Shown here: one piece after another, positions 1-33,653 of the stretch
Layout of the letters: every line of letters begins with the position of its first letter
Numbering within the stretch: position 1 is the first letter of the stretch
Translations under genes and position numbers: made by a program
Notes under the pieces: model-generated
Seen by the model: the letters and a program-made list of their open reading frames with translations, nothing else
The model's database searches: none
Told to the model about the DNA's origin: nothing
Virus record (IMG/VR): IMGVR_UViG_3300002514_000112
Coordinates: 403-35,008 of that record
Length of the DNA stretch: 34,606 nt
Source: a virus
Reading direction: 5' to 3' (one strand)

Positions 1-1122
1 GCGGAAGATAACATTAATAATACCTTCTACGATCTCTTTTGCTTTTTCAATCTTTGTTTTTTCTTCTAATGGAGCAGCAGTAACAGTCGGTTCTGCTTTT
101 GGTTTGGCTTTTTTTGGTGGTTTAAAACTTCGATCGTCCGCTTTTGTAAACATTTCCTGTACGCTAGCAGATGCTTTTGCCGATCTTGTTTTTAATTTAA
201 CCTTCACTCTATCTGACGCGTAATATGTTTTAGGATCTCCGCTTGAGTCTACAGCGGCCCACTCACACGTGACTGGATTACCGTAATTTGTATCACCACT
301 TCCCGTTTCTTTGAAACTAACAGTCTTATCTGCGCGGAGGGCTCGTACACCGTCAAACAACGTAAGGCTATCTAGGTCGATTGCCCTTGCCATAAAAGAT
401 CTTGCTTTTTTATCATATGCTTGAGCTAATGCATTTAGAATTCCCTTCAGATCTATTAATAATTTATTAGTTTCACTTTGATGGGCTGGAATTATCGTGG
501 GTATAACAAAAGAGCTAGCATGGTGGTGATTTTCATCATTCAACATATCAAACATGTTGAGTATAAGACCGGTAGTCAGATCTGTAGATGTTAACATTTT
601 TCCTTTTTTCTTGCTATGAATCGAAACTGTTGACGAATTTCCCTCTCCTTGTTCGAATATATAAAAATCGCAATTTTGTAAACTATTGTGCGCGTAGCTT
701 ATAATGATGCCGATTGCGCGGGTAACATATGTCATTGCCTCTGAAATTATTTTTATGTGTTTTATCGCGTGGCTAGTTAACCCGTGTGTGTTTCCGGCCT
801 TTCTATACGTTTGGTTCTTAGAAAAACCTAAATAATACTTCGCGGACAGATCACCGGTTAATACCCTGCGGCCACGTATGTCCTTCTCGGCGCGGACGTG
901 TGTATTTGGATAGTCTTCGTCTCCGATCGGGTTACTAAATGTTTCGTTAACTATTTTAAGTTTCCCGCCATATTCTTTGAGGCCGTGCTCTTTTGTATCT
1001 AAGCCAAATTCTTGTTCTTCGAATTCAGATTCCTCTTCGGGTTCATCTGGAATATGAGTTTCCGCCTCGGAATCTTTTTCCAAAACTTCTAAAACCAACT
1101 TTTTTAACAATTCTCTATTCAT
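1..1122 (-). CDS. Hypothetical protein, 3'-truncated by window edge
   Basis: An open frame of 374 codons runs from ATG at 1122 to the first base of the window without a stop, so the C-terminus is missing. The start is supported by GGGAGA (1129-1134) six bases upstream and by the TAATG overlap with the primase stop, which suggests translational coupling. Visible parts are a short N-terminal helix rich in Leu, Lys and Glu (1-16), a strongly acidic stretch (17-38), a central region with HGLTSHAIKH (113-122) and a hydrophobic helix, a triple His (199-201), and a basic Lys/Pro/Ala-rich linker (330-350) leading to the cut end. I do not recognise the family. Its place beside primase and resolvase hints at a DNA-metabolism or regulatory role rather than a structural one, but that is only context. 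Confidence 0.85.
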   Translation of the reverse strand, partial: MNRELLKKLVLEVLEKDSEAETHIPDEPEEESEFEEQEFGLDTKEHGLKEYGGKLKIVNETFSNPIGDEDYPNTHVRAEKDIRGRRVLTGDLSAKYYLGFSKNQTYRKAGNTHGLTSHAIKHIKIISEAMTYVTRAIGIIISYAHNSLQNCDFYIFEQGEGNSSTVSIHSKKKGKMLTSTDLTTGLILNMFDMLNDENHHHASSFVIPTIIPAHQSETNKLLIDLKGILNALAQAYDKKARSFMARAIDLDSLTLFDGVRALRADKTVSFKETGSGDTNYGNPVTCEWAAVDSSGDPKTYYASDRVKVKLKTRSAKASASVQEMFTKADDRSFKPPKKAKPKAEPTVTAAPLEEKTKIEKAKEIVEGIINVIFR

Positions 1123-2075
1123 TATATGTCTCCCAAAGCACGATGAACTTTATACTCTAAATAGTCTTCAGACACAATGGGTTGGGCATTTTTCTTTAAT
1201 TTTTCAAACTGTTTTTTTGTAATACTGCCAATATCCTCAATACCGCTAGTATCAATATTATAAACTTCTAATTCATATTTAAGGCATAAATCAATTAGTT
1301 TTTCTCGTTTTGTTTGTGCGTTGTCGTCCAGCGCTAAATACAATACCGGGTCATTAGATAAAATTGTTTGAAACACCACAGATTCCTCTCTAACAGTCGA
1401 GCCCAAAAGAGGTAGGGCATTACCCGCCACTAGTGCATCAAAGACCCCCTCGACCACTACAACGTCTTTGTTCCAGTCTAAAAATAGCTCATTAAACACC
1501 AAGTCCTTAGATAACGGAGGGTTCGTGTATTTTTCGCCATTTGTAAACGTACGGGCAACAAAATAGTTGCAATAACCTTCCATATCAAATGACGGAATTA
1601 TAATTCTATCATGATATCTACCGGTGTTACAAAACCCAATTTTCCATTGCAAAACATCTTCATATGTCAAACCACGGCGTCGTAAATAAGCCATGGCTGG
1701 TTTGGCAAATAAAGGTATTTTCTTCGAAGTTAGTGTTCGAAATTCATCAGGAAGTTTAATTCGTTGAGGTATTTCAAAAACCGGGTTGTCTTTGAAAAGG
1801 TCATCTAGTGACGAAGCTGAATACTCTTCAAAATTGGTTAACTCGTCCCACTTAACTAAGTGCTGAATTTCTCCAAATCGTTTAATGAGTCTACGAACCG
1901 ATTTCCCATGGTAATCACAAATCCAACATTTAAATGCGTTCTTTTCTATATTGACGCTTAATTTTGGTTTGTGGTGATCACAGTCGGGCATGGGACAACC
2001 AAATAGATATTCTTCTCCCACCCTACGCGAATGACCGAGCACTCTACGCAATATGTCATGTTTTTCAGCTAACAC
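1122..2075 (-). CDS. DNA primase (CHC2-type zinc ribbon plus Toprim), T4 gp61-like
   Basis: Primase would synthesise RNA primers for lagging-strand replication at the phage fork, working with a replicative helicase encoded elsewhere. The N-terminus has a zinc-ribbon pattern: Cys27 and Cys32, His34/35, then Cys50 and Cys53 in FKCWICDYHG. The middle part contains LRRRGLTYEDVLQWKIGF (131-148), typical of the primase catalytic core. A Toprim domain follows, with the metal-binding Glu209 in VVVVEGVFDAL and the acidic pair Asp250-Asp251 in YLALDDN. No helicase domain is present, so this is a stand-alone primase, as in T4-like phages. The start is GTG at 2075, directly after the stop of the upstream gene; no strong ribosome binding site is visible, so coupling is likely. 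The stop overlaps the next ATG (TAATG). Confidence 0.87.
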   Translation of the reverse strand: MLAEKHDILRRVLGHSRRVGEEYLFGCPMPDCDHHKPKLSVNIEKNAFKCWICDYHGKSVRRLIKRFGEIQHLVKWDELTNFEEYSASSLDDLFKDNPVFEIPQRIKLPDEFRTLTSKKIPLFAKPAMAYLRRRGLTYEDVLQWKIGFCNTGRYHDRIIIPSFDMEGYCNYFVARTFTNGEKYTNPPLSKDLVFNELFLDWNKDVVVVEGVFDALVAGNALPLLGSTVREESVVFQTILSNDPVLYLALDDNAQTKREKLIDLCLKYELEVYNIDTSGIEDIGSITKKQFEKLKKNAQPIVSEDYLEYKVHRALGDI

Positions 2076-2321
2076 TTATTTAAACAGTTTGTTCTTTGAA
2101 GTGATATAAATTCGCGAAAGTAAGTCTTTCTTAAGTTTTAAAAGTCTACCAAATTTTACAGGATCACGGGAATCGATTAAATGACCCGTTGGCTTACGAA
2201 TTTCGCCATCAATTACTTGGTCACTAAAATCATAAAATTTTGATTTGGTTGATTTGGTTGGGGGTTTGGCAATTGCGCCAAAGGATAGTGCTAACACCAG
2301 CACTACTAATAATTTTCGCAT
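2076..2321 (-). CDS. Small secreted protein, CglF-like (gliding-motility-associated family of deltaproteobacteria) candidate
   Basis: An 81-aa protein with a clear Sec signal peptide: MRK, a hydrophobic core (4-14), then a small-residue cleavage site AIA|K at 18/19. There is no lipobox Cys. The mature protein (about 63 aa) has a short basic, Thr/Ser-rich start and then FYDFSDQVIDGEIRKPTG (29-46), LIDSRDPVKFGRLLKLKKDL (48-67). From memory this matches small periplasmic or outer-membrane proteins beside TonB/ExbB-like and gliding-motility genes in Myxococcota and related bacteria, which share the pattern FD-D-VI-GEL-RPDG...R...KF-LLK-R. The start is well supported by AGGAGT (2327-2332) five bases upstream. 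It sits between resolvase and primase, an odd place for an envelope protein, and may be an acquired cargo gene. Being a real gene is near certain; the family call is moderate. Confidence 0.72.
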   Translation of the reverse strand: MRKLLVVLVLALSFGAIAKPPTKSTKSKFYDFSDQVIDGEIRKPTGHLIDSRDPVKFGRLLKLKKDLLSRIYITSKNKLFK

Positions 2322-2326
2322 GTGGT

Positions 2327-2332
2327 ACTCCT
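2327..2332 (-). promoter_or_regulatory. Ribosome binding site of the secreted-protein gene
   Basis: AGGAGT on the minus strand lies five bases before the ATG at 2321, within the 35-bp gap after the resolvase gene. It fixes the start and shows the small gene has its own translation signal. Just upstream, TTATTCTATATAG is AT-rich and could hold a -10-like element, but no matching -35 is evident. Confidence 0.7.
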
Positions 2333-2356: not shown

Positions 2357-2917
2357 TTACTTGGATGCGTCAAGATCTTTTTTATAAGCAGCCATGGCGA
2401 CGATGATGGCGTCTGCCATATCATAGTAAATAGTTTTTGGGTTATCGAACCTAGTATATTCAACATTTAAATCTTTATAATTTTTACAGACATGTTCTAA
2501 AACCGTGTTTTTGGTTGCCCGCTTATCACGACTACGTGTGATTTTTAAAGAACAAATCTTTCTAGCAGATGCTGGGCTTAAGTATTCCGGTTCTAAACCA
2601 AAAGTGTTTCTGGCTACGTAGGACACCATTGCGTTATATTTTAACAATCTAGCCATAGTGTGGGCCGAACTCCTTTTCTTTTTGCCGGTACCACCAAAAA
2701 ATTCAAACGGTGCTTCAATACAAATTTTTGTAATTGGTGTACCATTTGCTTTAATTGTTAATAATTTGTCTTTTATAAAATCGACTTTTCTGAATATGTT
2801 GTTGTCGGGAAAATCCTTTGGTTTCATAGGCCATGCGCCGAATCTTATAACGTCGCCGTGACAGTCTACCACAGAATAGCCTACAACACTAGTACTAATG
2901 TCTAGACCTAATATCAT
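2357..2917 (-). CDS. RuvC-like Holliday junction resolvase (RNase H fold)
   Basis: Probable structure-selective endonuclease that cuts four-way junctions in recombining or replicating phage DNA before packaging, taking the role T4 gp49 fills with a different fold. At 186 aa it has the usual size for phage RuvC-like enzymes. The four acidic catalytic positions of the RuvC fold are visible: Asp6 in MILGLDISTSVVGYSVVD, Glu68 in ICIEAPFEF, and Asp166 and Asp169 in YYDMADAIIVA. The middle segment (FFGGTGKKKRSSAHTMARL) is basic, as expected for DNA contact. AAAGGAAA just upstream of ATG 2917 serves as ribosome binding site. The gene follows the last structural gene by 13 bp and begins a small replication/recombination group. 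Confidence 0.85.
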   Translation of the reverse strand: MILGLDISTSVVGYSVVDCHGDVIRFGAWPMKPKDFPDNNIFRKVDFIKDKLLTIKANGTPITKICIEAPFEFFGGTGKKKRSSAHTMARLLKYNAMVSYVARNTFGLEPEYLSPASARKICSLKITRSRDKRATKNTVLEHVCKNYKDLNVEYTRFDNPKTIYYDMADAIIVAMAAYKKDLDASK

Positions 2918-13257: not shown

Positions 13258-16200
13258 CTACTTTAGAATATTTCCTTTGATTCCTTTATTCGGGTTTACG
13301 CTAACTGTTCCACCCGGAACATTTGATTTCTTTTTCTTAGATTTCTTTTTTGTTGTAACCGTTGCCGCGATATTACCAACTGTCGAATTTGAAAGTTCGT
13401 TTTGAAACTCTTGTTGCACAGATGGTAGTAACCCGCCAATTGGCGCAGTTGGAAGTGTTTCTATAACACTAGCTAGTGGAACCGGAGTCACTGTATTAAC
13501 CAACGTCGTATCAACAAAATTATTTGTTGGTGGAGTAAGACGTGGCGTAACTCTAGGTTTGGTAGTGGGTGCAGCAGTTTCTGGAGTTGTTACTTCGACA
13601 ACCTCGCCGGTATCGGGATCCTCTTGTAAGCTTTCTTTAGTTGGGCGCAATTCAACCTCTGCTTCTATTTTAGCATATTCTATCAAAGAATAAAAGTCGT
13701 GAGGCCAGTTATATGTAGCCAAATTATCATCGATCTTACCGTCACCGTCAATGTCAAATGTGGTTGCAAATCGATCTTTACTTGGATCAATGATTGCTTC
13801 GTAATTTGTGGCGGCGCGTTTTTTAACTTTGAACACCATCCAACGCACATTGTCTGCAATTTTATTGTTTTTAATGAATTGACCTTTAAGAGTCGAATGC
13901 GAAATAGAAGCTTCAACAAATTCTAAAGTGTCGTGTATTTCTGGAGAACTGTTTTGCCAAATATTTAATAAATCTGTTTGCGTTAGTTTTTGTTCGAATT
14001 CAAACATATACATTACAAACGGAGATATAGTTTTATCTTTTAAGAAGTCCATATGTGGGGGAATAACATACTTTTGCATTTTTTTAACCATATCAACCGT
14101 TGAAGGTTCTGGTCTAAATAATTTAAACGATTCCGGTAATTGATTTCCAACAATCATAACTTCAGCGTTATCAATATATCGTCTGTCGATGTTGATAAAA
14201 CTCTTAGTACGATGTTCTTCAACAAACGGTACAGCCACAATAGCTTCAGCTAAACAACGTTGGCCGTCTTGTGGTACTCGGCCCAAACGGACTGCTGTAT
14301 TTTTCTGGAAACCTACAACGTCGGCTAACGATTCAGAACCGGTTACATCAGCTATAGTAATAAATATACCAGCATTTTCGTCAGCATCGGCTTCATAAAC
14401 ACCTTGTTGGTGCCACATACCAGCATATGCCGAACCAAAATTCGGGACAGTATCTGGTGGGTTAACGTTGGTAATACTGGCAAAATTCAGCATTGGGGTT
14501 TCGAAACGCGGATGGATTGCCCACGCGCGAACGGCTGTGGTAGAATTTTTCGTCACCTCGGGTAACCCGGTGAGCGCATTGTATTCATTTGTGGAAATAT
14601 TTAATGTTTTATCTATCACCAAAGAGCCGGTGATTTGCATAACAGATTTATCACCGGTTGATATACCATAATCGGAAGTGTCGGTCGGGGCGCGGCGGTA
14701 TGTTTTGGTCGAACCATTCAGTATTTGATCTAAAGTATATTTACTAGTACTAGAATCGCTAGTAAATTCAATATCGACATAGCCATAAGAAGGATATATC
14801 GAATCACCAAACTTATTGCCGCCTTGTGACGGGTCTATCATATTATATGTAACCGGTGTGTGACCATGATATCCCAAACCCAAAGCCGCATCAGTTGCAC
14901 CGTATTGAAGTGGAATACCAAAAGCGCCAGCTTGCTTATAAGTTGTAAATCGGTTTGGCCAAGCCGACAAAGCACGCGATGGAGTATTCGCTAAATATAT
15001 TCTAAGTTTGTAAGTCGTAGAAGGCTGTACAATACCAAAATTTGTATCATTTTCTGCTTTTGACACCAATACGGTCGGACGACCTTTGGCTAAAAACATA
15101 TTCATTGTTTCAGCCAAGAAGTTATTAATAGCTAACTTATATTTTTTACTACTAACGTTACCTCTTTGTTCCCAATTAACCGAAGTAAAATATGCCCCTT
15201 GCGCGTTGGGATCTGGCTCATCATCATAAAGCAGATTCGGGATATAATTTTCTGGTGTCAAAAGACTTTCGAATGGAAGTCGGTCGTTATAACGATTGTC
15301 TCCCCACGAAGCTTCGGTGGACGATGTTATCCCCCAAAGATGATAATTACCGGAATCAGTAGGCATTTCCTTAAAACTATCGGTAGGATCTGAAGTAAAG
15401 ACCGGCCAATCTACCGCCATTCCGGCTTTAATAGAATTGTACAATATCCCGGGTGTAAAAAATGGTTTACTAAGTGTTCTCTTTTCGAAACCGTCCCAGT
15501 TAGTTACATCAACACGCGTGGAAAGATAGTCATCATGAAAAAGTTTCGCTAAGTCTAATGTACGTTGCACTGGGTAAAACCCGTGATATGGTATAAATTT
15601 TTTGGTTGCCTTACAACGTAATGTTAATTGGGTTGGTTTAATAATTGAATCTTTGTGATCATCAACAATCTCAGCAATGTGTTTCATAAAATCTGAATTG
15701 GAATACGTATTATAAAACCCGGTTTGGTCACTGGCATCTAAGTCCGCTGCACCTGATAGTGTCAAAAACCCGTCCACATATTTGTTATTATTAGATGCGA
15801 TCATATCATCAACGTGTTTGGACATAATATATTCCGGAATCAAAGATTGATCGACCACCAAACTATCTAGGTGTTCACGATACGTATCGTAATGAACAGT
15901 TGGTGTTCGGGTTAGATCCCAAAACGCGCCGTTCCAAAGCACGTTAGCGCCTGTAGCAACAAACGAGCCTGAAAATGGTCGGCAATATAATGGCCCGGGA
16001 ATCATATCTCCGGGGGTGCCGCCGTGATAAATTGTGTGTATGTTGAGTAACGATCCCGCGCCGTCCTCACCAGCAAACGCGTGTGAGCTAGTTGTTGTAT
16101 AATTTGCGCGGGGGTCAAGAGGCCAGATACTGCTTTTAGTCACTGTCTCTCCAAAACTATTTACCAAATCAATCTCTTGTCTGTCAATTACGCTGGCAGA

Positions 16201-19200
16201 CCACCATGTTACTTCATAGTTTGTGCGGGCTCTTGTATTTTCAAGTCCGACGTTAATTTCTCGCGGATAAATTGTATCACGATAAGTTATTTTTGAAAGC
16301 TGTGGTGTTGTTTCGTCAATTGTTTCATCCAAATATATTTGCTTCAAATCTTCGTATACAGTTTGATCTGGTGAAATATGAGTATTCAATCCATTAACCA
16401 ATTCTGTATTGGCAAATGATTGTAACATATTAGCATACGTGTGATCAATTTCGAAGTCGTTTAATCGACCTTGTTCATCGGCTACTTTCATTTCGTGAGT
16501 CATAACTAAATTGCGGAAAGTTACCGCAGGCTCATCATATAATGAAACCGATTGTTCAACAATACCCTTGGTGTTTTTTGATTGTTTTCCAGTTACTAAG
16601 GCTAATTTGTTGTTTTTACGTAAGTGTCTTACCAACGCGTTGTGTGTCGGACGTATTTGTTTCCAACTTGGCCAACCGTACGGGCCTTGTCTATGACTAA
16701 TCAAACCGTTCAAAAGGTCTTCAGGTGTAGCTTCTAATGTACCAATTGTAGGATTATTAAATTCAGATAAATCCGTTTGTGAACCAGAAGGCCCAGCTAA
16801 AGTAATATTGTCAGTAAGGATTGACTGGTGAACCAAAGTATTCAATCCGACGTAATCTACATGTAACAACCCGTCATTAGTTTCAACATGTGAATGCGAA
16901 CTAAACACAATACCAGAACCTGTGACATAAGCACTTGGTACCGGGTTATTGGTAGAAAATCCTAAGAAGGTTTCTGCGCTAGCAGTAATCCATGCATATT
17001 GAATATCACTAGCTGGAATTGCGTGTTGAATAAACCAATTATCATATTTCTGTACAATTTGAGTGTCTTCTGATAATTCATCAATTAATGACAGTCTATG
17101 TTGTGAGTTACGATTAACTTTATGATAACTGGCCATTCCATCATAATTGGCGGCGGTTGCTGATGCTGAAAACCCATTATATGTTGGGCTCCATGAAGCA
17201 TTTTCGAAATCTTCTGCCGTACGGTAATCTGAATAATAACCAAATTGATTAGCGTGGTCGCCGTGCCAAGAGTTTAAAGCTTCTCTAACTGTTAAATTTC
17301 GCCATGGTAATGCATTGTGAACGGCATACTCACCCGAAATGAAGTCTAGGAAACCTAATGAAAGTACTTCTGCTCCACCGGGTGCTGAAAATCTTTCTAC
17401 GAAAATATGTTGATTTGTGCTGCCGGTACGATCTGGCAATGTAAAATCAATAATGCCAGAAACAAATAGAGATTCTGCTGCTTGATATGTGAACCCTTCG
17501 CTTTTAACAAACGCTCTGTTTTGGAATTTTCTACCGGTTGTTTGGAAAAATTCATACTGGTTTGAATAGTTGCCCATTTCCGGATAAGCTGACTGAACTG
17601 TTTTAATATTTCTGATGTTAACGTGTGTAGACGGTCCATTCCATCTAGTTTTTGCCATTCTGTTGTGTGGTTGTGAAAACGAGCCGGTTCCACCAACTAA
17701 TTCTAAATGCCACGCTTCGATTCTACCATCTAATGGATCACCAGTTACTACTGTTAATCGGGTTTCGTGATCTTGGTTTCTGTGTGTCCAACCGCCATTA
17801 TATTCTCTAGTAAACGGAGACTGCATTGGTACTTCGTTATGGCCTGCGACGTTGTTGTGGAGATTAACAATGTTTGGTATTTGATACGGTCCTATTTCTC
17901 TGTCTTGAGCCAAAGAACCCGAAATTACTTGTTCTGAATATCCGCCAGCGTCGGCTTGAAGCATTGGTTGAATTTTAAATGGCGCTAATATTAAATGCTT
18001 ACCTTGTAAATATTCATCATGGCCAGTTGGATTAATTTGTGCCACCAAAATATCAGGTTTAACCGGTACAGCAAACTTTTTGTTGGGTGCAACACGTTTA
18101 GAATCTTCATCATTATTATCCGAACGTTCTGCCGTATATGCGGGGCTGCTAATTGTTAGTGTTTTACCAGATCTTACTTCATCGATTACTAGATTAGGTT
18201 TTTTGTTTCTATGATAATTTACACCACCGACGAGATTATACATTGTCTCGCCATCTGCAGAATATTTATATGGGGTTGTCCAACTTCGTTCTAATGCGTC
18301 TAAAGAACTACTAAAATATAGTTTTCGATGTGCTTGGTGAATTGCTGTATCTTCAAAAGTTTCGTTATTACGGCGAGCTTGCTGCCACCACCAATAACCA
18401 TTATCGTTTTGTTCACCACTTAAAGGCGCGTGGCCTTCTTTCCAATTATACAAGTGTCTGTTAATACCGACCAAACCACCTTCAGGATCTGACGTTTTAA
18501 GTTCTAGAGTCGGGAATTTATGCACATATTTGCTTCGCTCTAATACGTGACTTTCAATGATATTTCCAATTTTATCAGAAAATCTCGCTGATGCCGGTAC
18601 TAATTCTGTAACCATTTGTGAAACTGCTGAGTCAATCCATCGATAGAATGTAAAGAAGGTTTCCATATCGGGTGTGTTGTTTACGGTTTCGAAGAAGCGG
18701 ACACGAAGTTTTTCCATGGCTTTGTAGCTATGACGATATTTGTTTACAGGCTCACCTATTAGATTACTAAAGTCTTTCACCGTAGCAAACATCTTCATCA
18801 TTTCACGTGAAATTACGCGTTGCATGCTTTTTTCTAAAGAAAAGAAGTAATTGATTGGTAGACTATCTCTTGTAAAAGCTAAATCGTCTTGTTCTAAGAT
18901 TTTAATTAAACTAGTGTTTTGTAATTCTTCCGGAAACGACATACGTAACGCATGCAAATATTCTGTGCTGGCAACATCATCATTTGGTAAGAATAAATCT
19001 CCCTTACCCGGGTATTGTTTACTCACAATATCTCCAACCCAGCCATAACGCGCGCCGGTAGCTACTGAACCAGAAATCATGTCGTCAACAACGAAGGTAG
19101 CATCACTGGTTGTTGGGAGTCCGTCACTGCTCTCACCAGAGCCGGTAATGTTGTTAAAATCCCACAAAAGAGCTATAGTGTCGTTTCGTGGAATATAAAT

Positions 19201-21822
19201 ATCGCCAGTGTTTTCATAGACATACGCGTTTTGATCAGGCTGGCGACGGCCATAATGTGCTGGGTTATATGCGTGATATAACACTGTTCCTGTTGGTATG
19301 TAATCTAACCATGCAGCTACCTGTCCAAGTTTAACATCGGTTTGGTCAATCAAACTGCCGGTAAAGTCTTGGTAATGCGCGCCTGCATATAAACGTTTGT
19401 GCGCAGTCATAAAGGCTGAGCCTGACGCATACGGTACAGAACCGGTTACAAAGAAACTGTTCTGTACAGTGTCTTGTATTACATTGACACCGTAGAATTC
19501 TACAATATAGGGTTGATTTGTATTGTTGTTGGCCTCTGCCGCAAACGGCCATTCTTGAGGACGCATGCTGACAGAAACTGCCCATCGATTATTATCATAT
19601 ACTTCAGCAAACAGGTCACTAGTAAGTGTCGGAATTCCGTTTACGCTAGATGTAAATACAAAGCGTACGTCCCTCTCCGTCAATCCTAGGCCCGAGATTG
19701 GGTCGTGTGTAAGAACATCCCTAGTAACATGTACTTGGAAAGTCGCATCATCGCTAGTGGCCCATTCTAAATCTCCTTCGTCTGCTCTGGCTGTGTGCAT
19801 GCCAAAAAGAGAAGATGTGTGCTGGCGGTAATCTAAATAATTTGTATCAGCAGGACTGCCCTTTTTGGGAAAGATTATGTGTGTTTCTACTGTGAAACTA
19901 GTAGCATCGTCAAACGAGGCAGATAAATAATTTCCTTGGTCTGCATCGCCAGCACTGGATGTTTGTTGATAAATTGTCGAGTCATGACGATCGGCATCGT
20001 TGAAGTTAATAAACTTTGTTTTGTGTGCGTGGGTTGTATATGTATCTTCAATACGAAATTCTGTATTGTTGGGATAAATAACCAAATCAACTACATCACT
20101 ATTAATACCGAAACAACGTAATAAGTTTCTAAAAGCTTTGTCTGTACCTTTAGATTTATAAATATGTGTTAGGTTGTTGTAAATATTCTCATAGATACGA
20201 CGTTTGGCATCTTCTAATTGCGCCTCAAATAATTCTGTTTCTGTACGATTAAGATATCTTTCCAAAGCTGTAGAATCTGCAAACAATTCTTGTGTATTAA
20301 AACCATGGTGCATCAAATTACGGTCGTTAAATGGAGATAGTGCGGCAGACGAGGTAGAATAATCCGCGTTTTTCAAATGAGGCATATCACGTATTTGAAG
20401 CTGCGCAGTGTCGAAATAACTGGCCATAATTTGTACTAGTTTTTTAAGTGATTTACCGTCTAATTCGAATTCGTCTTCAGTAATCCAACTTGGTACCGAG
20501 CCATATAAGCTAGCTGGGTTTTGCATGTCGTGCGCTGTTCCAGATTCATATAGGTTCGCGCGGAGGGTAACAACTTCGTTGTTTGTAGAACGTAATATTG
20601 GATCTAAGAATTCGTTTTCTGCTGCCAGAGAATCGATCATCGCGCTGGCTGTGTGGCGTAACCCATTTGCATAACCTGTCCACGCTCCGTTTGAAACGCG
20701 ACCAGAATAATCTAAAACAACCGCGTCGGTAGTGCTATTCCCGCTTATTCCTTCATTAAATTTGTAATATACACCCAACGCGGTATTAGCTTCATCAATG
20801 TTTGTGCCGCCGCCGACCTGCGTTCTATAATATCTACCAATTTCTTTTGCTGTTCGTTTGGCGGTCCAAAATCGGAACTCGTCCAAAGAACCGGACATTT
20901 TGCCCCAACCCAACCCGGGTGTGGCTGAACCGCTTGGTGCTGCTGCCAATGCGCCGATGGTAGCTACCATGGCTCCACTTAAATAATTGACAACAGATCC
21001 ACTAGTAAAAGAATCGTTGTATTCGCCGTCTACGTAAAGCACTGTTTCAACTGTGCTGCCTGTATTAAACGCTACAATGGCATAATGGTGCCATTCACCA
21101 TCGGTCATGTTTCCACCAATACCGCTGCCCAATTGCGCATCGACAAAGCCCGCGCTACCCGACTCGTATGATATTAGAAACGGTACGGAACCGGAGACTT
21201 CTACTCTAAACCTACCATAATCAGGATTACCCTCTGAACTTCCTGTGTTATACACATCGAATATAACTTCCCTGTTCGTTGTTCCGCCTTCAAGTGTTAC
21301 ATCTTTTTTAAGCCAGAATTCTACAGTATTTCCAGTTGCGCCGTCAAGTTTAAGGTTTGATTCTCTAGAATTACTTTGATCAAAGATATTATCAACGTTC
21401 GGACCACCTTTAATATAGATATATTCTTTGGTTTCTGGATTACCATAGCCATCAGATATAGAAGTTTGATCGCCCCAACCGACACCAGCCCCAAATTGGA
21501 TGTGTCCTGCGGTTCTTGGCCATTTGTTTTCTAGAATCCATAAGTCTAATGCGGATGCGCTAAGTTCCCATTCCAGTCTTTCTGTACGAGAACCGTCATA
21601 TGGATATGTTACTAGAATATGCTCAGTGGCATCTTCATAATATTGGCGGGCTGAGCCATAAAAACTAAAGTTTGCTGGGTTTGAATAATCAACATGAGGG
21701 ATATATTCTTCGAAACTTTGTTCTTTGGCGTCAACAAATCTTTTTGATTCAACTTCGTCCCCAACATCATCGATAGAACTAGCAGGGAGTACTTTTTTTG
21801 AAAACAAATTCTTTAGTGACAT
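13258..21822 (-). CDS. Giant tail/adsorption protein (2854 aa) with LamG-like domains
   Basis: This one gene takes about a quarter of the window. Residues about 160-335 form a LamG/concanavalin-like domain (NTVEFWLKKD; DGEWHHYAIV; VLYVDGEYND; GSLDEFRFWTAKRTAKEIGR). A second, more diverged one is likely at about 640-850 (TSFTVETHIIFPKKGS; NNRWAVSVSMRP). Between them, NLTHIYKSKGTDKAFRNLLR with CFGI (550-573) recalls the K-x-K-G-T...L...FG motif of P2 gpI-type tail proteins. A Ca-binding-like loop DIDGDGKIDDN lies at 2690-2700. The C-terminal 130 residues are Pro/Thr-rich and end in a Lys cluster. A role in receptor or polysaccharide binding at the tail tip is plausible from the LamG folds. The start is weakly marked by AAGAG. 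Confidence 0.82.
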   Translation of the reverse strand: MSLKNLFSKKVLPASSIDDVGDEVESKRFVDAKEQSFEEYIPHVDYSNPANFSFYGSARQYYEDATEHILVTYPYDGSRTERLEWELSASALDLWILENKWPRTAGHIQFGAGVGWGDQTSISDGYGNPETKEYIYIKGGPNVDNIFDQSNSRESNLKLDGATGNTVEFWLKKDVTLEGGTTNREVIFDVYNTGSSEGNPDYGRFRVEVSGSVPFLISYESGSAGFVDAQLGSGIGGNMTDGEWHHYAIVAFNTGSTVETVLYVDGEYNDSFTSGSVVNYLSGAMVATIGALAAAPSGSATPGLGWGKMSGSLDEFRFWTAKRTAKEIGRYYRTQVGGGTNIDEANTALGVYYKFNEGISGNSTTDAVVLDYSGRVSNGAWTGYANGLRHTASAMIDSLAAENEFLDPILRSTNNEVVTLRANLYESGTAHDMQNPASLYGSVPSWITEDEFELDGKSLKKLVQIMASYFDTAQLQIRDMPHLKNADYSTSSAALSPFNDRNLMHHGFNTQELFADSTALERYLNRTETELFEAQLEDAKRRIYENIYNNLTHIYKSKGTDKAFRNLLRCFGINSDVVDLVIYPNNTEFRIEDTYTTHAHKTKFINFNDADRHDSTIYQQTSSAGDADQGNYLSASFDDATSFTVETHIIFPKKGSPADTNYLDYRQHTSSLFGMHTARADEGDLEWATSDDATFQVHVTRDVLTHDPISGLGLTERDVRFVFTSSVNGIPTLTSDLFAEVYDNNRWAVSVSMRPQEWPFAAEANNNTNQPYIVEFYGVNVIQDTVQNSFFVTGSVPYASGSAFMTAHKRLYAGAHYQDFTGSLIDQTDVKLGQVAAWLDYIPTGTVLYHAYNPAHYGRRQPDQNAYVYENTGDIYIPRNDTIALLWDFNNITGSGESSDGLPTTSDATFVVDDMISGSVATGARYGWVGDIVSKQYPGKGDLFLPNDDVASTEYLHALRMSFPEELQNTSLIKILEQDDLAFTRDSLPINYFFSLEKSMQRVISREMMKMFATVKDFSNLIGEPVNKYRHSYKAMEKLRVRFFETVNNTPDMETFFTFYRWIDSAVSQMVTELVPASARFSDKIGNIIESHVLERSKYVHKFPTLELKTSDPEGGLVGINRHLYNWKEGHAPLSGEQNDNGYWWWQQARRNNETFEDTAIHQAHRKLYFSSSLDALERSWTTPYKYSADGETMYNLVGGVNYHRNKKPNLVIDEVRSGKTLTISSPAYTAERSDNNDEDSKRVAPNKKFAVPVKPDILVAQINPTGHDEYLQGKHLILAPFKIQPMLQADAGGYSEQVISGSLAQDREIGPYQIPNIVNLHNNVAGHNEVPMQSPFTREYNGGWTHRNQDHETRLTVVTGDPLDGRIEAWHLELVGGTGSFSQPHNRMAKTRWNGPSTHVNIRNIKTVQSAYPEMGNYSNQYEFFQTTGRKFQNRAFVKSEGFTYQAAESLFVSGIIDFTLPDRTGSTNQHIFVERFSAPGGAEVLSLGFLDFISGEYAVHNALPWRNLTVREALNSWHGDHANQFGYYSDYRTAEDFENASWSPTYNGFSASATAANYDGMASYHKVNRNSQHRLSLIDELSEDTQIVQKYDNWFIQHAIPASDIQYAWITASAETFLGFSTNNPVPSAYVTGSGIVFSSHSHVETNDGLLHVDYVGLNTLVHQSILTDNITLAGPSGSQTDLSEFNNPTIGTLEATPEDLLNGLISHRQGPYGWPSWKQIRPTHNALVRHLRKNNKLALVTGKQSKNTKGIVEQSVSLYDEPAVTFRNLVMTHEMKVADEQGRLNDFEIDHTYANMLQSFANTELVNGLNTHISPDQTVYEDLKQIYLDETIDETTPQLSKITYRDTIYPREINVGLENTRARTNYEVTWWSASVIDRQEIDLVNSFGETVTKSSIWPLDPRANYTTTSSHAFAGEDGAGSLLNIHTIYHGGTPGDMIPGPLYCRPFSGSFVATGANVLWNGAFWDLTRTPTVHYDTYREHLDSLVVDQSLIPEYIMSKHVDDMIASNNNKYVDGFLTLSGAADLDASDQTGFYNTYSNSDFMKHIAEIVDDHKDSIIKPTQLTLRCKATKKFIPYHGFYPVQRTLDLAKLFHDDYLSTRVDVTNWDGFEKRTLSKPFFTPGILYNSIKAGMAVDWPVFTSDPTDSFKEMPTDSGNYHLWGITSSTEASWGDNRYNDRLPFESLLTPENYIPNLLYDDEPDPNAQGAYFTSVNWEQRGNVSSKKYKLAINNFLAETMNMFLAKGRPTVLVSKAENDTNFGIVQPSTTYKLRIYLANTPSRALSAWPNRFTTYKQAGAFGIPLQYGATDAALGLGYHGHTPVTYNMIDPSQGGNKFGDSIYPSYGYVDIEFTSDSSTSKYTLDQILNGSTKTYRRAPTDTSDYGISTGDKSVMQITGSLVIDKTLNISTNEYNALTGLPEVTKNSTTAVRAWAIHPRFETPMLNFASITNVNPPDTVPNFGSAYAGMWHQQGVYEADADENAGIFITIADVTGSESLADVVGFQKNTAVRLGRVPQDGQRCLAEAIVAVPFVEEHRTKSFINIDRRYIDNAEVMIVGNQLPESFKLFRPEPSTVDMVKKMQKYVIPPHMDFLKDKTISPFVMYMFEFEQKLTQTDLLNIWQNSSPEIHDTLEFVEASISHSTLKGQFIKNNKIADNVRWMVFKVKKRAATNYEAIIDPSKDRFATTFDIDGDGKIDDNLATYNWPHDFYSLIEYAKIEAEVELRPTKESLQEDPDTGEVVEVTTPETAAPTTKPRVTPRLTPPTNNFVDTTLVNTVTPVPLASVIETLPTAPIGGLLPSVQQEFQNELSNSTVGNIAATVTTKKKSKKKKSNVPGGTVSVNPNKGIKGNILK
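20818..21345 (-). other. LamG/concanavalin-like lectin domain inside the giant protein
   Basis: Approximate extent of residues 160-335. The order of elements (EFWLKK strand, a bulged beta sheet, D-G-x-W-H-H, LYVDG, then a closing L-D-E-F-R-F-W and short helix) is the hallmark of the LamG-like fold used in carbohydrate binding. Confidence 0.75.
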
Positions 21823-31164: not shown

Positions 31165-32664
31165 TCAACGCGTTAAAGAAACACGTTGATAATAATCTTT
31201 CCTCATTAAATTTCTATCAATTTTGTGGAGCCGGTGCTGTGATCGATGACCCGGGAGGTAACCATATCCGGTCCACTGCCAAATGACCGGTTCATTCCAT
31301 GGAAGACCAATGTTAACAGCATGATAAAGATCTTTAAAATCAAAACTAGGTAAAAGAGCTGTATTGTTACTAATACCACGTTTGTCCTTCGCCAGGCCCT
31401 TTTCTCGTACATAGTCTGCCCATACTAAATCAAAATATTCTGGCAATTGTTTTATTAGTTCTCTATCTGCCTTCGTTCCGTAATGACTCCATGAAGGAAG
31501 CGTTGTATAAAGAAGTAATTTTTTTGTAAGACCCAATTCTTTTTTAACTTTTTTTGCCCATCCAATGGCTGCTAATATATTAATATTATGTCCTTTGGCT
31601 CCAGTGTCCCTTTTATGACCTTTTTCAAAGTCTAACATAGGTGGCAAATCTCCAGGTTTTTTTACTTTATTATAACGTTTTAAAAAGTTATTTGCTTCTA
31701 ATTCTCCCCATCTTTCGGGAGAGGGCTTGGTACCATCATCTAGAATTTCAACCCATTCTGGGCGCAAAAAATGATATACACCAGCCAATGTTCCGGAAGC
31801 TCGGATTTGTTCTAATCGATCAGCTATTATGTTTTTTGGCTTTGTTCCCTGACCACCAGTACGGCCGTACGAAATTTTGACAATATGAAATTTTTGTTCT
31901 TTTGCTAAAACCTCATGTTTCAGATGTTTGTTCCATTGGTGACCTGATGTATCAATCCCGTGAATGGTAAATTTAGAATTATCGATTAATTTAACCGGTA
32001 CAACCGCGCCAGAGCCACCCTTATATTTTTCAGTACTAGAAGATGAACCGCCGCCGGCAGAACCTGGTTCTGCCGGGTTACGAAATGCCCGGGCAGCACT
32101 ATTAGCCGCGTTTCCTAAAGCCGAAGTCCCTGCGCCGGTGTCTTCATCTAATCGGCCAATATATATTGGTTCTCGCCACTGGTCATACGTACCAGATTTA
32201 GCTATCCAATCAACCCAGACAATATCACCAGGTGCTGGGGGTTGTGCGTGGGCGTTTTTAGCAGTAAAAAATGTATGTTGTTCTATTAACATTTGAGCTT
32301 CTACGTTAGATTTATCAAACGTTTGCGGAAAAGGCATTGAATCAAATAAATCGACTCTAGCATAAACTCCAAATGTCGCGCCGTCTTTAGCTTTTTCTCC
32401 AATGTTGGCATTAACGAGAGCGCGCTGATTAAAAAAACCTATATTAGTTCGGTCGTCGTTTTCTAATGTGTCCACTCTGAGTACTTGAGCGCGGTATCTT
32501 TTCCTTTCCGCGAAATCAATCAGATTGTCATCACGACCAATAACATCACGGCGTAATCTGGCTAATGGATTTGTTCTAGAACTATCATATGCTGGAAAAA
32601 CTTCCGGACCATTAGGATCGTTTAACTGCCCAAAAGAATATTGTTTATCAATCGGTTTCGGCAT
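31165..32664 (-). CDS. Baseplate hub tail lysozyme: gp5-like N-terminus fused to GH25 muramidase
   Basis: A 499-aa protein likely to sit at the baseplate centre and cut peptidoglycan during DNA injection. Residues about 55-175 look like the OB-fold part of T4 gp5 (RYRAQVLRVD; GDIVWVDWI; EPIYIGRLDED). A Gly/Ser/Ala-rich linker (175-225) follows. Residues 234-490 are a complete GH25 lysozyme: FTIHGIDTSGHQ with Asp238, AGVYHFLRP, PPMLDFEKG with Asp345 and Glu347, LVWADY, PVIWQWTGYGYLPG and IDRNLM. The acidic residues expected for GH25 catalysis are all present. T4 gp5 carries a different lysozyme family in its middle and a C-terminal beta-helix that is missing here. GAGGAA precedes the start, which lies inside the end of the 107-aa gene (17-bp overlap). 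Confidence 0.88.
   Translation of the reverse strand: MPKPIDKQYSFGQLNDPNGPEVFPAYDSSRTNPLARLRRDVIGRDDNLIDFAERKRYRAQVLRVDTLENDDRTNIGFFNQRALVNANIGEKAKDGATFGVYARVDLFDSMPFPQTFDKSNVEAQMLIEQHTFFTAKNAHAQPPAPGDIVWVDWIAKSGTYDQWREPIYIGRLDEDTGAGTSALGNAANSAARAFRNPAEPGSAGGGSSSSTEKYKGGSGAVVPVKLIDNSKFTIHGIDTSGHQWNKHLKHEVLAKEQKFHIVKISYGRTGGQGTKPKNIIADRLEQIRASGTLAGVYHFLRPEWVEILDDGTKPSPERWGELEANNFLKRYNKVKKPGDLPPMLDFEKGHKRDTGAKGHNINILAAIGWAKKVKKELGLTKKLLLYTTLPSWSHYGTKADRELIKQLPEYFDLVWADYVREKGLAKDKRGISNNTALLPSFDFKDLYHAVNIGLPWNEPVIWQWTGYGYLPGHRSQHRLHKIDRNLMRKDYYQRVSLTR
31195..31965 (-). other. GH25 muramidase domain
   Basis: Approximate extent of residues 234-490 of the hub protein. The N-terminal HGIDTS, the central LDFE and the C-terminal IWQW...ID motifs mark the GH25 (Chalaropsis-type) fold, with Asp238, Asp345 and Glu347 as expected active-site acids. 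Confidence 0.87.
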
Positions 32665-32971
32665 CGTCTTGAGATTCCTCGTTTGAAGAGGTTATCTCTT
32701 GAATTTCTTCAAACATAGCCTCTTTTTCGTCGTCATCAAAACCATCAAATTCTTTATCACTCTTTTTCATAATGGCTAAAACTTTAATTAATTGATCGTT
32801 TGATTTTTGGGAAATTTCAGTATACTTTGTAAATTGCTGGCCTAAGTCTCTGTGACTATGCTCCGTTTTCATCAAATATTTCATGATATCAACCAAGGCA
32901 ACATTTGCGTTACCTCGATCTGTACGGATGTTTTTAAGAGCTTCTTCTATTAGGTCTTCTATGTTATCCAT
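32648..32971 (-). CDS. Small acidic helical protein, conserved between gp55- and gp5-like genes
   Basis: A 107-aa, highly charged, predicted all-helical protein. The N-terminal part MDNIEDLIEEALKNIRTDRG and the middle part HRDLGQQFTKYTEISQKSND with QLIKVLAIMKK resemble a small conserved protein I recall from marine T4-like phages, where it is usually unannotated. The C-terminus is very acidic (DDDEKEAMFEEIQEITSSNE). It overlaps the sigma gene by 8 bp upstream and the hub gene by 17 bp downstream, so it is part of a tightly coupled unit. A regulatory partner of the sigma factor or an assembly factor are both possible; nothing in the sequence decides. Confidence 0.72.
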   Translation of the reverse strand: MDNIEDLIEEALKNIRTDRGNANVALVDIMKYLMKTEHSHRDLGQQFTKYTEISQKSNDQLIKVLAIMKKSDKEFDGFDDDEKEAMFEEIQEITSSNEESQDDAETD

Positions 32972-33653
32972 TTTCTACCCAACCCTTTTTGAAATCTCGA
33001 TACCTTGCACGGATTTTTGTTAAGCTATTCACAATCTGTTTTGTATTCAAACCAGAAATTTCTCTCATATACAAATAAATAGCCTTCTTATTGAAAATTT
33101 CAATGTCATCAACGTTCTCAATGAGTACTCTTATTGTCTCTACAACCTTTTTTTCGTTGTCTCTGAGTTTTAGTTGGGACCATCCATCGATTTCTTTTTG
33201 AAGCGCTTGCCAAAACTCTGCTTGTTCTCGACGTTCGTGATAATTGTTGTGTACAGTTATCTTAAGGGCGTCCTTTTTAACTTGTGCGATCCCTTCTAGA
33301 CTTAATTCTCTATCAAAACGCTTTCGCGTCTTTTTAACTTGGTGAATAAACCAGTTTTTTACCACAACACTAAAGTATGTAAAAGCTTTTGATCCCTTGT
33401 CGGGATCAAATTTGGTCAATACTGTTGTTGTATAAGCTTTGCAGTCTTCTCTTAAAATATCGACATTGGGTAAAGAAGTGAATTTATAGGTGAAAATAAT
33501 CTTTTCAATTAATTCATTTAATACCGGGTCAATAATATTTTTGTATATCTTATCCTTTTCTTTCTGATCAGAAGATTTACACCACTCTACAATAGCGTCT
33601 TCATGAACTTGAGTGAAATAGTAATTCTTTTTCCATTTACGTTTTTTGGCCAT
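32964..33653 (-). CDS. Late-transcription sigma factor, T4 gp55-like
   Basis: A 229-aa protein that would direct host RNA polymerase to phage late promoters. The N-terminus KKNYYFTQVHEDAIVEWCKS and the core EKIIFTYKFTSLPNVDILRE (50-69), KFDPDKGSKAFTYFSVVVKN (81-100) and WFIHQVKKTRKR (101-112) match the sigma region 2-like core of gp55 proteins in marine T4-like phages. T4 gp55 is shorter (about 185 aa). The C-terminal part is basic and helical. CGGAGTAAG precedes ATG 33653, which lies inside the end of the membrane-protein gene (17-bp overlap). Its place directly upstream of the baseplate genes, with no gap, fits late-gene control. Confidence 0.88.
   Translation of the reverse strand: MAKKRKWKKNYYFTQVHEDAIVEWCKSSDQKEKDKIYKNIIDPVLNELIEKIIFTYKFTSLPNVDILREDCKAYTTTVLTKFDPDKGSKAFTYFSVVVKNWFIHQVKKTRKRFDRELSLEGIAQVKKDALKITVHNNYHERREQAEFWQALQKEIDGWSQLKLRDNEKKVVETIRVLIENVDDIEIFNKKAIYLYMREISGLNTKQIVNSLTKIRARYRDFKKGWVENG

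Follow-up and report, generated by a model that had tools for sequence, protein, structure and literature searches.

Why does a T4-like phage carry, between the genes for a resolvase and a primase, a small gene for a predicted secreted protein whose relatives belong to bacterial envelope machines? The window analysed here is a stretch of 34,606 nucleotides (positions 403 to 35,008 of IMG/VR record IMGVR_UViG_3300002514_000112, a record of 35,008 bases), and its baseplate wedge proteins and gp25-like protein mark it as a fragment of a T4-like phage. Little is known of phages that infect Myxococcota, and of the Glt-like gene clusters of these bacteria only those for gliding and sporulation have a known function. 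Two questions are therefore raised by the locus: (i) which bacterial protein the gene derives from; and (ii) what it might do during infection.

The gene and its predicted product

The gene, here called F′, is an 81-aa open reading frame with an ATG start (Table 1). Its position, its ribosome binding site and its two neighbours are exactly as first described from the bare sequence, and so are the motifs quoted at that time. The GTG of the primase abuts the stop codon of F′ (TAA GTG, window positions 2073-2078, minus strand), and because the primase has no Shine-Dalgarno sequence of its own, this junction suggests that the two genes are translationally coupled. A promoter scan gave a result at chance level. 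The search for relatives of the window's own primase had a single find, in a contig nearly identical to the window.

Table 1. Features of the F′ locus in window coordinates
Feature	Position	Strand	Evidence
F′ gene for a predicted secreted protein of group B in the CglF/GltF family, homologous to the F subunit of Glt-like envelope clusters	2076..2321	-	NCBIfam NF033764 E 1.5e-8; tree and HMM
Predicted Sec signal peptide, residues 1-18 (AIA/K)	2268..2321	-	Sequence reading; hydrophobic start of relatives; predicted helix 2-13
Core motif KFYDFSDQVIDGEIRKPT, residues 28-45	2187..2240	-	Column comparison; phage and bacterial alignments
C-terminal helix, about residues 54/58-75, with FGRLLKLKK motif	2097..2162	-	AlphaFold2 models
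Shine-Dalgarno AGGAG, 6 nt 5′ of the F′ ATG	2328..2332	-	Sequence
RuvC-like Holliday junction resolvase, upstream neighbour of F′, 35 bp gap	2357..2917	-	phrog_159 E 8e-9
DnaG-like primase, downstream neighbour of F′, gap 0	1122..2075	-	phrog_47 E 6e-37

Read by eye, the N-terminus of F′, MRKLLVVLVLALSFGAIA/KPP, resembles a Sec signal peptide, and in nearly all of about 100 relatives the start is as hydrophobic, though its sequence differs. Conservation across phages and bacteria peaks, column by column, at the core motif. In the alignments and the column table the window protein matches the core of the bacterial branch described below as group B, KFYDFSDQ(L/V)IDGE(I)(K/R)KPT ... KF.RLL.LKK, with a C-terminal FK; it contains no cysteine. 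Two AlphaFold2 models have a hairpin and a C-terminal helix, with pLDDT of about 85 in the helix and a whole-chain pTM of 0.25-0.26. The low pTM (0.25) is as expected for a small subunit that would fold on its partners, a fit that is no proof of such folding. A search of PDB sequences returned nothing credible (best E 0.07). The window copy is itself divergent, with an end branch of 0.62 and changes in columns conserved elsewhere (24 Y to L, 42 S to D, 43 F to L); having lost some conserved residues, this particular copy may be drifting.

Assignment to a second branch of the F family

In NCBIfam the sole family found was CglF (NF033764, E 1.5e-8). The match scores 34.5 bits and falls short of the curated cut-off of 90, as do the 22 phage records that were tested. 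Pfam gave no match to F′, and PHROGs no significant one. A chance match is ruled out by 1000 shuffles of the mature part, the best of which reaches 7.5 bits on the bacterial group B profile, 72 bits lower than the 79.4 bits of F′ itself.

The F family of Myxococcota consists of two branches, separated by a split with SH-aLRT 99, which emerge when members with high and with low scores are taken from Myxococcota genomes. Group A (YDFEDD.V.G.LVRPDGE...SSLI.IR..FIPEMLKSVEDL) adjoins GltE and GltG and is the true CglF/GltF, whereas group B, or F′ (FYDFSDQLIDGEIKKPT...KF.RLL.LKKSF), lies downstream of genes for an OMP, GltC′, GltD′ and GltE′. The groups, which split anciently, are homologous by profile-profile comparison (probability 98.3%, E 1.6e-14). 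The window protein falls in a 99-supported group of 61 rows on the group B side of the tree, opposite the clade that adjoins GltG and GltH, and it scores 49.6 bits higher on the group B HMM than on that of group A. All 94 distinct phage copies likewise score higher on the group B HMM, by a margin of at least 43 bits.

F′ is thus not CglF/GltF itself, because it lies far below the family cut-off and across a supported split; the group B HMM argues against that identity too. The original prediction of a CglF-type protein holds for homology and fails for the paralog, and the gene tree nests F′ with its bacterial counterparts, apart from CglF/GltF. A bacterial family match does exist, and the relatives are not confined to unrelated phage proteins. 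CglF/GltF (MXAN_4868, NF033764), which in Myxococcus xanthus belongs to the Agl-Glt gliding machinery, is small and secreted, as F′ is predicted to be, and its core likewise has an acidic aromatic motif, a G, a basic-P motif and a C-terminal helix, but it differs in branch and in having GltG beside it. The operon from which F′ derives is without the FHA-type GltG that adjoins GltF; in some genomes a GltJ-like gene is present instead.

A further F protein to be considered is NfsF of the Nfs sporulation complex, which occupies the paralogous position in an A-H operon (PMC2875238, PMC3858216). The Nfs genes are the closest Glt paralogs in M. xanthus (PMC3169522), and for this reason NfsF, unlike phage F′, would be expected in group A. 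Membership of F′ in the Nfs system was judged unlikely on these grounds (PMC3169522).

In most of the MAGs examined, group B F′ closes an OMP-GltC′-GltD′-GltE′ operon, and in some genomes it is followed by a GltJ-like protein whose tail is TonB-like. M. xanthus has two further Glt-like clusters, G4 and G5, which are uncharacterised (PMC3169522). We infer from their resemblance that the group B clusters are probably of this G4/G5 type. Phage F′ stands without the partners that were searched for.

The bacterial loci offered several side observations. Myxococcota have a conserved, uncharacterised Glt-like operon that is parallel to the gliding operon (e.g., L126:363-11686, with a 430-aa protein, OMP, GltC′, GltD′, GltE′, F′ and a GltJ-like protein). 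In several Myxococcota MAGs a second, diverged F′ lies just downstream of the first (L044:3593-3838, L045:8338-8571, L046:8355-8588, L047:8289-8522, L050:8265-8498 and L038:8949-9188). One MAG has a 1030-aa open frame that contains the F′ core motif (L054:6027-9119).

Distribution, host group and origin

When IMG/VR was scanned with the window protein, 25 loci were found, and with the alignment 110, 80 of which were retained; the scans use exact peptide patterns, which distant relatives may escape. Once contigs found more than once had been dropped, together with the near-copy of the window's own phage, 94 phage copies with 75 distinct cores were left. Many phages and bacteria encode relatives at 38-64% identity. 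The near-copy is 99.88% identical over 8.3 kb and differs in F′ by one synonymous base. Two queries of the isolated phages in INPHARED found no F′, the one weak match covering the signal peptide and adjoining residues alone. The literature search found no paper on a phage-borne CglF, and within the literature searched the phage-borne F′ family is unreported in phages.

Among 84,980 bacterial genomes, every relative is from Myxococcota or from a MAG that bears the label Deltaproteobacteria, Proteobacteria or uncultured bacterium; one of the last kind (G023) belongs to the same phylum as a Myxococcota MAG, since a sample of that phylum came back for it. The phage motif has the SDQ form common to uncultured MAG lineages, unlike that of the Myxococcus-like genome G147, and the host is therefore very likely a Myxococcota bacterium akin to those lineages, as gene kinship would have it. 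The early view of the gene as host-derived cargo that points to the host group agrees with this distribution, and F′ can serve as a marker linking uncultured phages to Myxococcota hosts.

The phage copies occupy about 20 neighbour contexts, 11 of them common to at least two loci. In the largest (n=31) the genes run UvsX, exonuclease, protease-like, F′, DnaB helicase and ribonucleotide reductase. The window's own context (RuvC, F′, DnaG) is unique among the F′ loci compared, bar the near-identical contig of the same phage; the check for related phages with F′ at the same locus thus found none that shares the window's neighbours. Phage copies stand among phage genes, whereas bacterial copies follow GltE′. 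OMP_myx_plus and GltC were searched for in 23 phage records and neither was found, a result for these two partner families that argues against transfer of the whole machine to phages. Absent partner genes are weak evidence because most viral records are fragments. In one F′ phage context there is also a GroEL chaperonin gene (L010:2195-3769; phrog_5725, E 9e-139), and this cluster recurs in ten loci.

Viral and bacterial copies interleave in the tree, with seven changes by parsimony, at least two of them forced by supported branches. The 57 columns are too few to reject one viral clade (p-AU 0.34). Repeated capture of F′ by phages is thus likely, as far as the tree can be read. Phage F′ is under strong purifying selection: median dN/dS is 0.04 (Nei-Gojobori) over 96 viral pairs of 54 codons that are not independent of each other, and between several contigs dN is 0 at a dS of 0.42-0.55. 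Derived from the host and kept by selection in many phages, F′ fits the description of a host-derived auxiliary phage gene. Its retention under strong selection in at least 94 phage contigs implies that this subunit matters to infection.

A comparable case is psbA of cyanophages, a single host subunit that many phages keep under purifying selection. F′ likewise is a lone host subunit found in many phages and under purifying selection, but it is part of an envelope machine rather than of photosynthesis or metabolism, and its role is putative.

Possible roles during infection

We suggest that F′ would be made alongside the replication proteins, exported through Sec into the periplasm and docked into the Glt-like complex that the host itself makes, at the position of its F subunit, where an intact, functional copy could keep or reset an energised envelope machine during infection, much as photosystem genes serve cyanophages. 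Whether phage F′ in fact supplies that complex with an intact, functional subunit is a question on which we hold the chances to be about even. As to the outcome, the machine may be sustained or the surface changed. A functional subunit is favoured over a crippled decoy because the viral and bacterial consensus sequences, compared column by column, agree in nearly every conserved column. Homology, the group B membership of all 94 copies, the bacterial operon context, the lack of OMP_myx_plus and GltC matches in the 23 phage records, the signal-like start, purifying selection and placement in replication clusters all speak for such a subunit. In M. xanthus the sister protein GltF is needed for gliding and lies in focal adhesions, and GltD depends on it for localisation (PMC3169522); GltF is reported in both periplasm and membrane of the gliding system (PMC3169522, PMC4488436). 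The divergence of the window copy and its changed conserved columns fit functional replacement less well, and F′ may bind some other target.

The main rival is superinfection exclusion or receptor inactivation, in which F′ would jam an outer-membrane or periplasmic part of the Glt-like complex and so change an exposed receptor, as T5 Llp does with FhuA. We consider this doubtful. In its favour, F′ is small and predicted to be secreted, comes from T4-like phages and is located in replication clusters; the target machine combines a barrel in the outer membrane with a TonB-like partner; and one subunit alone is found in phages. Llp, which acts on the TonB-dependent receptor FhuA, is a precedent, and Llp and Cor are, as F′ would be, small phage-encoded periplasmic proteins, directed at energised outer-membrane systems (PMC9586334). 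They are, however, exclusion lipoproteins, whereas F′ has no lipobox cysteine, indeed no cysteine at all, and hence is no lipoprotein; no sequence relation to them is claimed, and exclusion by F′ is hypothetical. There is also no sign that the Glt-like complex serves as a phage receptor, nor any of the systematic loss of conserved columns that a crippled decoy might show.

Other readings fare worse than a functional subunit or exclusion. Phage lysis cassettes contain small secreted proteins, and the divergence of the window copy could be taken to mean that the phage has turned F′ to an internal use of its own, e.g., as a lysis accessory or virion part that retains the family shape. We think this unlikely, given that F′ lies among replication genes rather than lysis or virion genes and that the host consensus is kept under purifying selection. 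Slightly less probable still is the original prediction's version, in which F′ acts as a working CglF/GltF and alters gliding. There is a CglF match at the family level, but the score is below the curated cut-off and the paralog branch is the other one. Moreover, polar mutants of the gltD homologues in G4 and G5 glide normally, with no motility defect (PMC3169522), and for that reason an effect of F′ on gliding is not implied. The last reading, that F′ is functionless passenger host DNA or that the contigs are bacterial and miscalled as viral, could appeal to the host origin of the gene and to the fragmentary state of most records. It is already contradicted by the median dN/dS, by the 31 contigs with one conserved phage context (UvsX, DnaB, RNR), by terminases in four of the long F′-bearing records and by the T4-like baseplate region of the window.

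If a functional or interfering subunit is indeed the phage's lever, many phages of Myxococcota might control a Tol/TonB-like energised envelope machine through one small subunit, whether by sustaining or by jamming it, a generalisation that we put forward tentatively and at somewhat less than even chances. Such control would represent a new class of phage interference against Glt-type machines and give a handle on the uncharacterised clusters, for which F′ is in any case a small, single-gene probe.

A few further observations concern the phage genomes themselves. On the minus strand of the window, positions 32964-33653 have a weak match to a T4-type late sigma factor (phrog_234, E 1e-4), and a 2854-aa protein of the tail region (13258-21822) has zero PHROG matches. 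Near the baseplate genes, a 499-aa protein (31165-32664, minus strand) has an endolysin-like C-terminal half (phrog_291, E 1.6e-11) and an unmatched N-terminal half, and is perhaps a tail-hub lysozyme. In two F′-bearing records the terminase matches cross stop codons (G016:C1:79078-80685, with three TGA, one TAG and one TAA; G004:C1:58427-60160, with one TAG), for which an intron, a frameshift or recoding is a possible explanation.
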